Of a DNA stretch of 23,667 nucleotides, positions 1,376 to 19,856 are shown in pieces. Source of the DNA: a virus; IMG/VR virus record IMGVR_UViG_3300043399_001408, positions 1 through 23,667 of that record; one strand, 5' to 3'. Below the pieces are notes generated by a model. That model did no database searches and was not told where the DNA came from. It saw only the letters and a list, made by a program, of their open reading frames with translations. The translations under genes and the position numbers were made by a program. Numbering within the stretch: the first letter of the stretch is position 1; every line of letters starts with the position of its first letter.

Positions 1376-2302
1376 ATGGAAAACAGGCAAGAATGGCTAA
1401 GAGAACGTAAGAACTATTTGGGTGGCTCTGAGTTAGCATCAATTTGCGGGGTATCTAGTTTTGGTAAGACTGCTCTTGATGTATACTTTTCTAAAGTAAA
1501 TCCTGCTATTGTGGAATTAACAAAAGATGACCCAAATTATGAAGCTGCTTACTGGGGGACGAAACAAGAAGAAATTATAGCAGAAAGATATGCAGAGGAA
1601 CGTAAGGTAATAATCAAAACACAACCTGCATTAATTAAGCATCCTAAATATGAATTTATTGCTTGTAATATTGATAGATGGGTTGGTAATAGAGAATATA
1701 TATTAGAATGTAAAACCTCTCATTTTTATAAGATGAAACAATGGGGAGACTCAGGCACTGACCAAATCCCTGAGTCATATCTGATACAAGTAGCATATTA
1801 CGCAAGTATATGTGATGTTCCTAAAGTTGATATAGCAGTACTCATCGGCGGACAGGATTTTAGAATTTATACGTATGAGCGAAATAAGGAGTTAGAGGAA
1901 AAGCTAATTAAAATAGCCTGTAATTTCTGGCATAACCATATAGAAAAAAGGATACCGCCTAAATGTGTTAATACTCAGGATACGTTTAACTTATTCCCAC
2001 AGTCGCATAATTGCGAAATAGTAGCGGAAAGTAACATTTTGGAAAAATGGGAACAACTTAAAGCCTTAAGAGCAGAAGAAAGCAAGATAGCCGATACCAT
2101 TGAGAAATTAAAGACTGATATACAGGAATTTATGAGAGATTATGACGTGCTAATTGATAATCAGGGGAACGTAATAGCTACATGGAAAAATACAGCTCCA
2201 AAGTCGTTTTTTGATGTAAAAAAGTTCAAAGATGAGGCAAAAGAGCTGTATTTGAAGTATATTAGTCATGCTAAGCAATCGAGAATGTTTTTAGTAAAAT
2301 GA
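1376..2302 (+). CDS. YqaJ-family phage exonuclease (lambda Exo-like)
   Basis: Predicted PD-(D/E)XK alkaline exonuclease of the YqaJ family. Such enzymes resect one strand of linear duplex DNA, leaving 3' single strands for an annealing protein. Visible landmarks in order: GGSELASICG (residues 16-25, family signature), the acidic cluster GTKQEE (61-66), NID (98-100) with the metal-binding Asp100, LECK (110-113) giving the E-x-K catalytic pair, and the Q-x-x-Y motif after the PESY stretch (about 132-142). A C-terminal helical region (about 220-260) follows. At 308 aa it is a normal length. Its TGA overlaps the ATG of a helix-turn-helix gene, and a RecT/Bet-type gene lies 420 bases downstream, the usual partner in phage recombination modules. 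Confidence 0.88.
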   Translation: MENRQEWLRERKNYLGGSELASICGVSSFGKTALDVYFSKVNPAIVELTKDDPNYEAAYWGTKQEEIIAERYAEERKVIIKTQPALIKHPKYEFIACNIDRWVGNREYILECKTSHFYKMKQWGDSGTDQIPESYLIQVAYYASICDVPKVDIAVLIGGQDFRIYTYERNKELEEKLIKIACNFWHNHIEKRIPPKCVNTQDTFNLFPQSHNCEIVAESNILEKWEQLKALRAEESKIADTIEKLKTDIQEFMRDYDVLIDNQGNVIATWKNTAPKSFFDVKKFKDEAKELYLKYISHAKQSRMFLVK

Positions 2303-2460
2303 GAAAATATCCAGTACCAACTAAAGAAGAAGCAGAAGAACTTAGAAGATTAAGGCAAGAGGCGGGCATGACAATTCCTCTAATAGCTGAGGCTTTACAT
2401 ACTAATAAAGCAAGGATCAGCGAGTGTCAACTACTCCCTGCTAAAGCAGGAAGCTTGTAA
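2299..2460 (+). pseudogene. helix-turn-helix protein, truncated by a mobile element
   Basis: A reading frame starts at 2299, overlapping the exonuclease stop in an ATGA junction. It encodes a typical Xre-like helix-turn-helix start (about residues 12-42, including LRRLRQEAGMTIPLIAEAL and NKARISE). At about base 2426 the sequence enters the end of a small IS200/IS605-type element, and the last dozen codons to the TAA at 2458-2460 are element sequence. The natural C-terminus is therefore lost or replaced. It was probably a small regulator co-expressed with the exonuclease. Whether the 53-residue product still folds or binds DNA cannot be told from sequence alone. Confidence 0.7.
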
Positions 2461-2547
2461 CTAAAGAGATAATTTATGTTAAGAACACAAACTATTCGAT
2501 GCTACCATTGGCCGATTGACAGCGGCCTTGTCTCGGATATTCCAAGA
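2426..2547 (-). ncRNA. candidate TnpB guide RNA (omega RNA) of the short element
   Basis: In IS200/IS605 elements the 3' end of tnpB and the right end are transcribed into a guide RNA whose 3' tail is flanking DNA. This stretch is the only part of tnpB kept in the short copy. Its terminal hairpin, CTTCCTGC-TTTA-GCAGGGAG, is preserved although several bases differ from the full copy. Expression is not shown by the sequence. Confidence 0.4.
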
Positions 2548-2636
2548 TTCGACGAAATTATTACTGATTATTTAACAACAGTCAAGCGTTTCCTCTCCGT
2601 CATAAATAACGGAGTATCCACGCTAAAGAGGTTTAG
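2426..2636 (-). mobile_element. internally deleted TnpB element (MITE/PATE-like)
   Basis: About 211 bases match the two ends of the full tnpB element at 17901-19152, in inverted orientation. Bases 2571-2636 match the left end (17901-17966) almost perfectly. Bases 2426-2547 match the 3' end of tnpB plus the right end, with about 10 differences in 120. The middle of tnpB is missing, and about 23 unrelated bases join the two parts. Both terminal hairpins are kept. The outer left boundary abuts ATGAAT (ATTCAT on the element strand), as in the full copy. It has no coding capacity and would need a transposase in trans. It splits the helix-turn-helix gene. Confidence 0.88.
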
Positions 2637-2729
2637 ATGAATATAATAGAAGCCATAAAAGAAGTGTTTAATTTGTATAGAAAATTTAGCAAGAAAATAG
2701 AAGAGGAGGAGATTAAAGAAAATGAGTAA
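2637..2729 (+). CDS. small hypothetical ORF (30 aa) between the element and recT
   Basis: An ATG at 2637 directly abuts the end of the short element and opens a 30-codon frame (MNIIEAIKEV...). It ends 8 bases inside the recT-like gene, suggesting translational coupling. GAGG at 2628-2631, within the element's end, gives a well-spaced ribosome-binding site. The product is a charged helix rich in Lys and Glu. It may be a genuine small gene or the remaining C-terminus of the interrupted upstream gene; no homolog is recognised. Confidence 0.4.
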   Translation: MNIIEAIKEVFNLYRKFSKKIEEEEIKENE

Positions 2730-4353: not shown

Positions 4354-4752
4354 ATGACTAAAGAAAAACCTGCTAAGGACAAAAAATTACAAAATAAGGT
4401 AGGAGTTAATCCGACTAAGAAAGAAAGGATAGAACCACCAAGAAAACAGATGTTATCCTTTGAGCTTTATATTAAGGTACTAAGACATATGCAAGAAAAA
4501 TACCCGAAATGTTTTAGTAAACCGCCAAAACCTTTAGCCATCGGTATTTTAAAGGATGTAAGAGGGGAGTGCCAAGCGCTTGAGATTACAAGAGGACAGC
4601 TACAACAATTTTTTAATAGGTACTGCAAGAAAGACCAGTATAAACAAGCACTCATAGTTGGAGCAGAAAGAATGGACTTAGAAGGTAATGTAAGAAGCAT
4701 TGTTACTGAGAAAGAAGTTGCTTTTTTGAAAGAACAAACTCTATCCGTTTAA
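4354..4752 (+). CDS. ProQ/FinO-domain RNA chaperone
   Basis: A 132-aa basic protein. A Lys-rich unstructured N-terminus (1-32) is followed by a ProQ/FinO domain (about 35-122). Diagnostic pieces are YPKCFS (50-55), PLAIGILKD (60-68), a helix with RGQLQQFFNRYC (80-91) and GAERMDLEG (103-111). They correspond to the family's 'P..F', 'PLKIGI..D', 'L..AL..Y' and 'G..R.DL.G' positions. Family members bind the base and 3' tail of RNA stem-loops such as terminators and mediate small-RNA control of plasmid transfer, competence or host mRNAs. Here it is compact and lacks the extra C-terminal domain of E. coli ProQ. It lies last in the recombination block, six bases after the membrane protein gene. Confidence 0.85.
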   Translation: MTKEKPAKDKKLQNKVGVNPTKKERIEPPRKQMLSFELYIKVLRHMQEKYPKCFSKPPKPLAIGILKDVRGECQALEITRGQLQQFFNRYCKKDQYKQALIVGAERMDLEGNVRSIVTEKEVAFLKEQTLSV

Positions 4753-13031: not shown

Positions 13032-13238
13032 ATGAAAAGAGGAGTTGTTAAATTTTATTCTACCGAAAGCAAGTATGGTTTTATTAAACCTGATGATGGC
13101 TCAAAAGATGTCTTCTTTCATCAGAACAATCTTATAAAATCTGGTATAGAAGAAATTAAAAAGAATCAGAAAGTTGAATATACACCAGCTACTAAAGGCG
13201 AAAAGGTATATGCTATTGATATCAGACATTTAGACTAA
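13032..13238 (+). CDS. cold-shock protein (CspA family)
   Basis: A 68-aa single-domain OB-fold protein of normal CspA length. The RNP1-like motif KYGFI (14-18) and the RNP2-like VFFH (27-30) are intact, with GVVKFY at the N-terminus and the typical strand VEYTPATKGEKVYAIDI at the C-terminus. Such proteins bind single-stranded RNA and DNA and melt RNA structure. The gene stands alone after the virion genes with a 71-base gap and no clear ribosome-binding site. It may be a phage-carried copy used to aid translation, or a host-derived passenger gene. It ends about 70 bases before a convergent hairpin. Confidence 0.9.
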   Translation: MKRGVVKFYSTESKYGFIKPDDGSKDVFFHQNNLIKSGIEEIKKNQKVEYTPATKGEKVYAIDIRHLD

Positions 13239-17231: not shown

Positions 17232-17900
17232 TTACCCTACATCTCTTTTTACGCTACGATCAATGTAACGATCTTTGGTCAAATTATTAGCAGACGTTAA
17301 GCTTTCCTGATATAATTTTGTATAAACAGGCATCCTCTGATCATCTTTTAAATAAATAAGAGCCTCTAAAAAGGCGGCATAAAATAGAAGATCAGGGTAA
17401 TAGTCTGTTAGTATGTTTGTTTGATTCTCATTTGTAATTAAATTAGGTCTTCCTATGTAAGTTATTTGGTAATTATATTCTTTATCCGGGGTTGGAACGA
17501 TCAAATAATATTTATAAGGACTTACGTTTTCTTGTCCCGGTTGATAATCTGAGTAAAAGAGGGGAGGATTAGCCGCGTCGCTTAAATTAACATTTGGCCA
17601 GTAATTTATACAGAACTCATAGCTTCTAGGAAATAGGACAACGTTATTTATAAAAAAGTTATCTGCTGAACCATAAATTATTGAGATAGTTTCCTGCCAA
17701 TCAGCAGGTTTTTCAATAGTGGCATTATTTACCTGAAACTTTTTAAGCTGTGTAGTTTTTTGAAAACCTGTGGTATTTAGCTCTTTCCAGATTTTCTGCT
17801 GTCCCATCTCAATAAAATAGGGAATGGCAGCAGCAAATTCAATGCTACCTCCTCTATTGGCATAAGCTATTATCTGTGCTGTAAGAGTATCATAATTCAT
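17232..17900 (-). CDS. tail adaptor/head-completion protein, gp4-like
   Basis: A 222-aa protein resembling the podovirus adaptor proteins that sit under the portal. The N-terminal helix block (YDTLTAQIIAYANRGG... AIPYFIEMGQQKIWKEL, residues 3-42) matches the usual pattern of 'L...I..Y.......F...IP.FI..A...I...L'. It is followed by PADWQETISI (61-70) and a strand-rich middle with FPRSYEFCINYWPN. The C-terminus has LLFYAAFLEALIYLKDD, also typical. The start ATG is the last base triplet before a mobile element, and GAGG in the element's end provides the ribosome-binding site. Any original upstream leader lies beyond the element. Confidence 0.78.
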   Translation of the reverse strand: MNYDTLTAQIIAYANRGGSIEFAAAIPYFIEMGQQKIWKELNTTGFQKTTQLKKFQVNNATIEKPADWQETISIIYGSADNFFINNVVLFPRSYEFCINYWPNVNLSDAANPPLFYSDYQPGQENVSPYKYYLIVPTPDKEYNYQITYIGRPNLITNENQTNILTDYYPDLLFYAAFLEALIYLKDDQRMPVYTKLYQESLTSANNLTKDRYIDRSVKRDVG

Positions 17901-18013
17901 CTAAACCTCTTTAGCGTGGATACTCCGTTATTTATGACGGAGAGGAAACGCTTGACTGTTGTTAAGAAATAATCCATATATTCTACACAGGAAAATTTTA
18001 GGCTACAAAGTGA

Positions 18014-19099
18014 ATGAAACTTACAGCTAATATCAAGTTGCAATGTAATAAAGAACAACATCAAAAATTGCTTGATAATCTTATTGCTTGCAATAACGCC
18101 TGTAATTATGTTTCTGAGTTTGGTTTTACAAATAAGATTTTTACACAATTTAAACTGCATAAAGCGGTTTATTACGTAATTAGAGAAAAGTTTAATCTCT
18201 CTGCTCAAATGGCGGTAAGGTGTATAGCTAAAGTCGCAGATAGCTATACACTTTCTAAAAAGGTTCAAATTAAGTTCAGACAACATTCTGCTCAACCTTT
18301 TGATAGTCGTATTTTTAGGTTTATAAAGAATGATTTCGTCTCCATTACTACCCTTACTGGTAGAGAAAAAATACCTTTCCAGTGTGGAGAGTATCAAAGA
18401 CAACTTCTTAAAACTCAGTCTGGTGAAGTTGATTTGCTGTATATCAAGAAGCAATTTTATATAGCTTGTCCTTGTGATGTTGAACAAGAACAAATACAAG
18501 AGACTAAAGATGCTTTGGGTATTGACCTTGGTATCGTTAACATTGCTGTAGATTCTGAAGGAACTTTTTATAGCGGTAGAGATGTTGAGATTTACCGCAA
18601 GAAAATGCTTAATTGCCGTAAAAACCTTCAAAAGAAAGGCACTAAAGCTGCTAAAAGAAAACTCAAGGCTATATCTAAAAAACAGCAGAGATTTCAAAAA
18701 GATACAAACCACTGCATTAGTAAAACTATTGTAGAAAAGGCTAAACGCTTGCACTACTCTATTAAACTTGAAGACCTTCAAGGAATTAGAGAAAGTGTTA
18801 AGGCCAATAAGTCTACTCGATCTAAAATAGCTAACTGGGGTTTTTATCAACTGAAAAGCTTTATTGAATATAAAGCTAAAATTAATGGTGTTCTTGTTGA
18901 ACTTATTGATCGTGCAAATACTTCTAATACTTGCCCTATGTGTCAGTATGTCAGTAAATCTAACAGAAGAACACAAGCAATTTTTAAATGCAAGCAGTGT
19001 AGTTTCGAGGCTAACGCTGATCTTGTGGCGTCTTGGAATATCCGAGACAAGGCCGCTGTCAATCGGCCAATGGTAGCAAGTAGTAGTTTGTGTGTTTAA
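18014..19099 (+). CDS. tnpB: TnpB RNA-guided endonuclease
   Basis: A 361-aa TnpB of normal length for compact members. The RuvC-like active site appears intact: Asp171 in ALGIDLGIVNIAV, Glu253 in IKLEDLQGIRE and Asp336 in NADLVASWNI. The zinc-binding cysteines are present: CPMC (307-310) and CKQC (326-329). The N-terminal half is the usual strand and helix wedge region. TnpB is known to cut DNA next to a short target-adjacent motif using a guide RNA made from the element's right end. This helps the element persist after the transposase excises it. The frame is undisturbed and probably functional. Its last codons overlap the presumed guide RNA, which is also the part kept in the short copy. 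Confidence 0.93.
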   Translation: MKLTANIKLQCNKEQHQKLLDNLIACNNACNYVSEFGFTNKIFTQFKLHKAVYYVIREKFNLSAQMAVRCIAKVADSYTLSKKVQIKFRQHSAQPFDSRIFRFIKNDFVSITTLTGREKIPFQCGEYQRQLLKTQSGEVDLLYIKKQFYIACPCDVEQEQIQETKDALGIDLGIVNIAVDSEGTFYSGRDVEIYRKKMLNCRKNLQKKGTKAAKRKLKAISKKQQRFQKDTNHCISKTIVEKAKRLHYSIKLEDLQGIRESVKANKSTRSKIANWGFYQLKSFIEYKAKINGVLVELIDRANTSNTCPMCQYVSKSNRRTQAIFKCKQCSFEANADLVASWNIRDKAAVNRPMVASSSLCV

Positions 19100-19152
19100 C
19101 ATAAATTATCTCTTTAGTTACAAGCTCCTTGCTTTAGCTAGGAGTAGTTGAC
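19032..19152 (+). ncRNA. candidate TnpB guide RNA (omega RNA) of the full element
   Basis: The 3' end of tnpB and the right end form the usual guide-RNA region of IS200/IS605 elements. They match the retained segment of the short copy with only about 10 changes. The guide would be the flanking DNA starting near 19153. The element's left flank, ATTCAT, would be the matching target-adjacent motif. Boundaries and expression are inferred. Confidence 0.45.
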
Positions 19153-19205
19153 ATAATCAACTAAAGTACAAGTTTCTATTTAATATTTTCTTGAATTAGT
19201 TATAA

Positions 19206-19244
19206 ACTAAAAACTACTCCATAGTTTAGACGCCTATGGAGTAG
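19206..19244 (-). terminator. intrinsic terminator after the tail-fibre genes
   Basis: CTACTCCATAG and CTATGGAGTAG (19214-19224 and 19234-19244) form a perfect 11-bp stem with a 9-nt loop. On the - strand it is followed by TTTTTAG. It lies about 30 bases after the stop of the last fibre gene, so it should end the fibre transcript. The gp4-like gene downstream would then need its own promoter, possibly in the ~60 bases between this hairpin and the element. Confidence 0.8.
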
Positions 19245-19274
19245 TAATGAAAGCTGTTTTTATATACTTTGTTA

Positions 19275-19808
19275 TTAAATATTAATAATAAAATACATAA
19301 AACTACCGACGTCGGTTTCTACAGTTGACTTAACTGTAAAAGAGCCGTTGCCGGGAATAACGTTTAAAGTACCGATAGTTGTTACATCGTTAATATCTCC
19401 AGTTCTAGTTAAAGAAATTCTTGAAGATGTAGTAACTATTGGTGCTTGTACTATTACAGTTCCATCGGTTAATGTACCAATACCAACATTATCACTGCTA
19501 ACAGTAAAAAGAGTTTTAGAACTGCTGCTATCAATAAAAGTAGGTACACCAGCCCTGGAAGAAAATATACCATCACCTGCAGCAACAGTTGGAAGAGTAC
19601 TACCAGTAGCATCAGCTAAGTAAAGAGCAGGGAGAGTACTTTCGGTATTTCCGATATGTAAACCAGCAAGTGGATTATCAGTACCGATACCGACATTTTG
19701 ACCGTTACCTAATGCTACAGCATTTGAACTACCACTAGCGACAGTATTACCAACACCAATATTATTATATTCTATATCAATGGTGGTAATGAGTTGACTT
19801 AAAGCCAT
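19275..19808 (-). CDS. short tail-fibre protein, 177 aa
   Basis: Composition and motifs are those of phage fibre proteins. It has beta-roll type repeats (NAVALGNGQNVGIGTDNPLAGLHIG, NVGIGTLTDGTV) and a C-terminal region ITL-like strand block (VTTSSRISLTRTGDINDVTTIG... GSFTVKSTVETDVGSFMYFIIN). The last 65 residues follow the same pattern as the end of the 524-aa fibre gene upstream, suggesting a shared C-terminal knob. TGAGGT eight bases before ATG supports the start. It is the last gene before the terminator, so it may be an accessory fibre or a fibre-tip subunit. Receptor binding is inferred from the family, not shown. Confidence 0.75.
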   Translation of the reverse strand: MALSQLITTIDIEYNNIGVGNTVASGSSNAVALGNGQNVGIGTDNPLAGLHIGNTESTLPALYLADATGSTLPTVAAGDGIFSSRAGVPTFIDSSSSKTLFTVSSDNVGIGTLTDGTVIVQAPIVTTSSRISLTRTGDINDVTTIGTLNVIPGNGSFTVKSTVETDVGSFMYFIINI

Positions 19809-19856
19809 GTTATTAACCTCATAAAATTATGTTAAAAAATATCTTAAATCCTTGAT

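Follow-up and report, generated by a model that had tools for sequence, protein, structure and literature searches.

We report here that a family of tnpB-only IS200/IS605-type elements is found next to antisense start codons well above expectation, and that this start-codon link is family-wide. The window analysed, a 23.7-kb virus fragment from IMG/VR (23,667 nucleotides), contains two copies of one such mobile element, and the left ends of both adjoin the start codon of a phage gene on the opposite strand. Our best explanation, which we consider probable, is that the target motif of these elements is a reversed start codon and that insertions at TTCAY sites are afterwards sorted by survivorship.

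Copy A occupies positions 17901-19152 on the plus strand and carries tnpB; its edges were set by comparison of the two copies and by the right-end consensus of the family. Copy B (2426-2636, minus strand) is non-autonomous, its tnpB having been deleted by an internal loss of 1041 nt, which corresponds to 347 codons in the antisense frame. The left end of copy A starts at 17901 with CTAAACCTCTTTAG and its right end closes at 19152 with ...TAGTTGAC. Copy B runs from 2636 to 2426, its left 20 nt are identical to those of copy A, its right end ...GGAGTAGTTGAC is also that of copy A, and the TAGTTGAC tail is present in both. TTCAT precedes the left end of both copies. At copy A, this target motif lies at 17896-17900 on the plus strand, within the ATTCAT (17895-17900) that adjoins the left end; in the family, the corresponding flank is YCAY. 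It is followed by the linker CTAAACCTCTTTAG (17901-17914, plus strand), whose loop (17906-17909) is GAGG when read from the minus strand, and by the main left-end hairpin AGCGT-GGATA-CTCCGT..ACGGAG-AGGAA-ACGCT (17913-17952, plus strand; DNA fold z=-2.4), on which the left-end covariance model R1 matches both window copies (E=2e-11). The tnpB gene (18014-19099, plus strand) codes for an RNA-guided nuclease of 361 aa, with matches to Pfam OrfB_IS605 and Cas12f1-like_TNB, both above the Pfam cut-offs, and to a PHROG transposase. The right end (19122-19152, plus strand) consists of a conserved hairpin at 19125-19144 and the TAGTTGAC tail, and the family consensus for this end is ACAAG-CCC..TTTAG..GGG-TNNTTGAC. 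Based on the precedent of ISDra2 (PMC8612924), 19122-19152 is expected to form the 3' end of a guide-RNA scaffold, with the predicted guide running from 19153 on (ATAATCAACTAAAGTACAAG). The TAM of ISDra2 TnpB is the target motif of that element (PMC8612924), and TTCAT is the expected TAM of the copy A TnpB.

Imperfect subterminal hairpins, a criterion for IS200/IS605 elements, are present at both ends, and empty sites in related viral loci (L024/L025 and L099) place the insertion 3' of a fixed short motif without target duplication. A Y1 HUH transposase TnpA was not found among the main window ORFs scanned, nor was there an Rfam match to a group I intron in 17850-19300. IS200/IS605 forms that carry only tnpB are known, and copies A and B are an element of this type. 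The left-end hairpin, composed of an outer stem, GGAAG, an inner stem, a TTTAG loop and AGGAA, and the right-end hairpin with its TNNTTGAC tail are common to related TnpB elements on plasmids, on a Bifidobacterium megaplasmid and in a virus. Close relatives of the exact element were found neither in viral contigs nor in phage records, and plasmids yielded one distant left-end match. The sole viral-contig match (L460) has the same left end and flank as the Bifidobacterium plasmid element (L006), and 100 related viral loci contained no further left end. The phage also encodes an RNA chaperone of the ProQ/FinO type (E=5e-19) and a protein with a cold-shock domain (E=1e-17), located at window positions 4354-4752 and 13032-13238.

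The target of copy A is a gene for an SU10-adaptor/gp4-like virion protein (17232-17900, minus strand), identified by Pfam SU10_adaptor and by its relatives, and the complement of 17900-17898 is its ATG. In about 60 related viral loci, this gene almost always starts with ATGAAY at the same place. Just upstream of the gene, the region (window 19145-19830) is highly variable among the relatives L014-L078, with differing tail-fibre-like 3' ends, whereas the gene itself is conserved. The start codon next to copy B belongs to a small gene, MNIIEAIKEVFNLYRKFSKKIEEEEIKENE (2637-2729, plus strand), which is conserved together with its start in relatives and follows, as a separate gene beginning MNIIEA, a complete HTH gene in several of them. 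The idea that this ATG is an internal methionine codon of the HTH gene is ruled out by the separate gene that starts there in relatives. Judged by this conservation, both ATGs are genuine start codons, as had been claimed from the ATTCAT next to each copy in a reading of the window made from the sequence alone (hereafter the sequence-only reading).

The same reading had both copies insert against start codons, which holds directly for copy A but not for copy B. Both empty sites are found on one contig, IMGVR_UViG_3300047565_000218 (L025 and L099/L461). Copy B is flanked on its right by an HTH gene remnant (2299-2425, plus strand), and this flank, ACTCGCTGATCCTTGCTTTA, is identical in 20/20 nt to the intact HTH gene of that contig (L099/L461), at a site immediately 3' of a TTCAT that is internal to this gene, out of frame and no start codon. 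On its left, copy B abuts the TTCAT belonging to the MNIIEA start, which in relatives lies 98-202 bases from the HTH-gene site. With the right flank inside the HTH gene and the left flank at the MNIIEA start, copy B therefore landed in the HTH gene, its original insertion site, and its left end was brought to the start codon by a deletion between the two TTCATs, with the transposase or repeat slippage as candidate agent. The predicted guide of the copy B right end (window 2406-2425) matches the HTH gene in 20/20 positions and is accompanied by the TTCAT motif (L099/L461, 1075-1099). If the copy A TnpB works in trans, relatives without the element could be cut at the HTH gene.

The covariance model was run against 151 Chloroflexota genomes, which gave about 150 left ends among the matches listed. 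From 263 nonredundant left ends, a YCAY boundary was set in 226, and 75 with a confident right end were used; because the rest of the 226 sites had no accepted right end, sampling may be uneven. The comparison set comes mostly from Chloroflexota genomes and its TnpBs are approximately 38-47% identical to that of the window, whereas the exact element is represented by its two copies only. For each site, the flanks were rejoined to give the empty site and the antisense strand was read. A Shine-Dalgarno sequence 5-17 bases upstream of an RTG was present in 33/75 rejoined sites compared with 11.7 expected, as estimated from sites in these flanks that share the 5-mer (p=5e-9). An antisense ORF of at least 50 codons, closely preceded by a stop, was present in 22 compared with 6.4 (p=2e-7). 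By location, 25 of the 75 sites are at a start, 20 at other intergenic positions and 30 in a gene, against 4.5, 6.8 and 63.7 expected. The set of 71 independent insertions, which leaves out the window and related flanks, gave 23 at an antisense start, 18 at other intergenic positions and 30 in genes (about 4, 6 and 60 expected), where the 30 in-gene calls rest on an ORF caller that is crude in GC-rich DNA. This amounts to an approximately 5-fold enrichment of starts (p ~1e-11) and a depletion of genes (p ~1e-16), and the enrichment of antisense start codons at left flanks is what the sequence-only reading had proposed to look for. Among TTCAT sites alone, with the window included, nine are at a start, three are intergenic and two are in a gene. 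Examples of start-site insertions are AAAGGAGTATTCCAAA|ATGAATCGTCAA (L177) and CAACCGAGGAGGAATCGC|ATGACCACC (L437). Since starts make up a share of 0.56 of the non-genic sites compared with 0.40 expected (p=0.04), most of the start surplus reflects the avoidance of genes, and targeting of starts is not required to account for it.

At both window copies, GAGG lies five nucleotides before the ATG and its duplex with the anti-Shine-Dalgarno sequence reaches -6.5 kcal/mol. The native leaders differ between the two genes: those of gp4 are almost without a Shine-Dalgarno sequence (+0.6 to -2.2 kcal/mol), whereas those of the MNIIEA gene have one (-6.4 to -7.3 kcal/mol), which was lost at copy B. Thus, the element may add a Shine-Dalgarno sequence at copy A, as had been claimed for both insertions, and may replace one of similar calculated strength at copy B. 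The GAGG had been described as the loop of a terminal hairpin. Its position stands but the hairpin is marginal: the CTAAA-CCTC-TTTAG fold has -0.7 kcal/mol alone and -1.4 in context, and the terminal hairpin CTAAACCTCTTTAG is absent from the minimum free energy DNA fold of the left end, in which the 17913-17952 hairpin is the fold. When folded as RNA, copy A mostly has its GAGG base-paired to other parts of the sequence, and copy B gives a mixed picture. A consensus search found no promoter in the left end.

Across the family, the linker next to the start differs completely between lineages. The proportion of linker classes that reach -6 kcal/mol with the anti-Shine-Dalgarno sequence (12-15%) is close to that of random genomic windows (12%), class means are not clearly different from those of shuffles (p=0.07-0.17), and Shine-Dalgarno strength does not differ between elements at starts and elements elsewhere (p=0.68). 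At start sites, the element sequence upstream of the start is more Shine-Dalgarno-like than random genomic DNA (-4.55 compared with -2.65, p=4e-4, a value that ignores shared ancestry), and GGAGG/AAAGG-type motifs occur at good spacing in several lineages, for example GGAGGTTTTCG and AAAGGAGTTTTCT. In Chloroflexota left ends such as L374, L365 and L443, which form a long-linker class (TCAY-AGATGCTTGCCTTTAGGCGCGG), the antisense strand reads CTAAAGG some 9 nt upstream of the target start. A good Shine-Dalgarno sequence at the element end is hence a feature of the window and of a few lineages, and it is not conserved. Conservation of the GAGG as proof of its function is ruled out by the variable linkers and the lack of a start/non-start difference.

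A second property of these elements is the antisense frame of tnpB. Copy A contains an antisense ORF of 401 codons that is codon-aligned with tnpB (17897-19102, minus strand), has its own ATG with an SD-like AAAGAG upstream (19115-19110) and ends in a TGA that forms an ATGA overlap with the gp4 start codon (17900-17897). In copy B, the ORF is reduced to 54 codons (2476-2640, plus strand; AAAGAG at 2463-2468) and keeps the start, frame and end of that in copy A, with an in-frame deletion and an ATGA at 2637-2640. The frame is open for 401 codons because the window tnpB (GC 34%) contains no TTA, CTA or TCA among its 26 leucine and 25 serine codons, for which P is ~3e-12 under the phage's own codon usage. 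Depletion of TTA, CTA and TCA is about 3-fold across the clade: over 64 family tnpB genes they occur at 0.26-0.46 of expectation, compared with 0.85-1.11 for other NNA codons. Across the family, the aligned antisense frame has 110 stops against 341 expected, whereas the other antisense frames are at 1.05 and 1.04 of expectation; these expectations were drawn from short flanks and the exact ratios are rough. The aligned frame is free of stops in 28 of 65 family genes (1.7 expected), and it also stays open across the non-coding left end in 16/21 of the zero-stop elements but in only 1/21 of the others (p=3e-6). Seven TnpBs of other lineages lack a comparable stop loss, whereas the Bacteroides member has 0 stops compared with 14. 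Codon usage is disfavoured as the cause of the open frame by the normal counts of other NNA codons and of the other antisense frames, by the openness of the non-coding left end and by the unaffected distant TnpBs, as well as by IS110 and DDE transposases, which show only a general shortage of NNA codons. Taken together, the aligned antisense frame of this clade looks like a selected reading frame.

The antisense protein has no Pfam or PHROG family match. On the antisense strand, a strong Shine-Dalgarno-ATG arrangement (for example GTCGGCAGGAGCCGT-ATG) recurs approximately 90-100 bases inside the tnpB 3' end (L388, L443, L398, L431 and L451), which may be a start of the antisense frame or a by-product of conserved TnpB sequence. 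Family-wide, start sites seldom carry a fully open coupled antisense ORF and the two are not linked, nor do zero-stop elements show a surplus beside antisense flanking genes. The antisense ORF is thus unsupported as a general cause of start-site survival.

We propose that a tnpB-only element, mobilized by a transposase supplied in trans, inserts 3' of TTCAY and duplicates no target sequence. On the other strand this motif reads RTGAA, the opening five bases of many genes, and insertion there keeps the start codon and the entire coding sequence beyond the left end intact. Because the target is a reversed start codon, many of the tolerable sites are at starts; most other TTCAY sites lie in genes, where insertions would be purged by selection. 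The outcome is a strong surplus of copies placed exactly between an antisense start codon and its native Shine-Dalgarno sequence. Of the two window copies, copy A inserted directly at such a site, and copy B arrived there from the neighbouring gene by the TTCAT-TTCAT deletion. The data show the element type, the target, the genuine start codons, the enrichment across the family and the depletion from genes; that selection after insertion caused the surplus is what we infer, and the target gene is presumably still translated, perhaps aided by the GAGG and by the antisense ORF ending in ATGA. Two observations speak against survivorship: insertion between a Shine-Dalgarno sequence and its ATG should hurt expression, so that translation must somehow be restored, and 30 insertions are still called in genes.

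One way in which translation might be restored is that ribosomes enter at the right-end Shine-Dalgarno-ATG, cross the element within the antisense ORF and re-initiate at the ATGA of the target. The shared start and ATGA end of the 401- and 54-codon ORFs, the in-frame deletion in copy B, the lack of antisense stops in the window tnpB and in much of the family and the open left ends all fit such passage. We regard it as rather unlikely, as start sites seldom have fully open coupled ORFs, zero-stop elements show no surplus beside antisense genes, and the open frame is the RTGA-coupled frame in only 11/21 elements (7 expected). The related proposal, that the clade carries a selected, element-long antisense frame which, combined with an RTGA target, renders insertions translationally transparent for the antisense gene by stop-start coupling, is one we regard as possible but doubtful. 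The sequence-only reading had instead placed the rescue in the GAGG loop, with an element end that evolved a Shine-Dalgarno sequence as a selected tolerance strategy. The duplex strength and spacing at both copies, and the SD-like motifs and element sequences at other start sites, would suit this view. Against it, the loop varies freely, an outcome that the sequence-only reading itself had named as refuting, and linkers perform no better than random windows or shuffles or at starts than elsewhere, and with gene avoidance covering most of the enrichment, we consider selected tolerance of this kind unlikely. The start-codon part of that reading stands, although two thirds of the insertions are off starts. 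A transposase that prefers initiation regions, for example because DNA around gene starts is single-stranded or because the target is longer and takes in the Shine-Dalgarno complement, might produce the slight excess of starts among non-genic sites and the sites with a Shine-Dalgarno sequence but no long ORF. That excess is small next to gene avoidance, and for ISDra2 only the pentanucleotide is named as target (PMC2806898), making active targeting improbable as well. Finally, ATGAA is common as a gene start and, with copy B brought there by deletion, the window holds just one direct start insertion, so that two copies near starts could be meaningless; given the 5-fold enrichment in the family, coincidence is highly implausible. 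We therefore retain a reversed-start target combined with survivorship as the probable explanation.

More broadly, these results show that a transposon can be led by its target motif to the rare spots of a compact genome where insertion spares coding sequence. The insertions of the family provide a test set on which targeting can be told apart from survivorship. If the loss of antisense stops is confirmed, the gene for a widespread RNA-guided nuclease shares its sequence with a second function on the antisense strand, either coding or readthrough. In the literature searched, outside which most subscription papers lie, we found no paper on start-codon insertion or on a tnpB antisense frame, and a loss of antisense stops confined to one frame of tnpB is, by this search, undescribed.

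With ISDra2/IS608 and IS1341-type elements, the element described here shares TnpB, subterminal hairpins, and the absence of inverted terminal repeats and of target duplication. ISDra2 inserts 3' of TTGAT and IS608 3' of TTAC (PMC8612924, PMC2806898), and insertion 3' of a short motif that remains at the left end is likewise common to both and to our element. In contrast to them, the target here, TTCAY/YCAY, is a reversed start codon, the antisense frame of tnpB is open and no tnpA was seen in the window. IStrons, which combine an IS605-type element with a group I intron and are rendered harmless by splicing (PMC4227781), provide a precedent for an IS605-related element with a harmless-insertion device. 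However, IStrons splice from the transcript, whereas here there is no intron and the position of insertion spares the gene. TldR proteins are TnpB-derived RNA-guided regulators in phages (PMC13418256), and are thus, like the protein studied here, phage-borne TnpB relatives; their guides aim at the 5' part of genes. Unlike TldR, the TnpB described here lies inside recognizable mobile ends.
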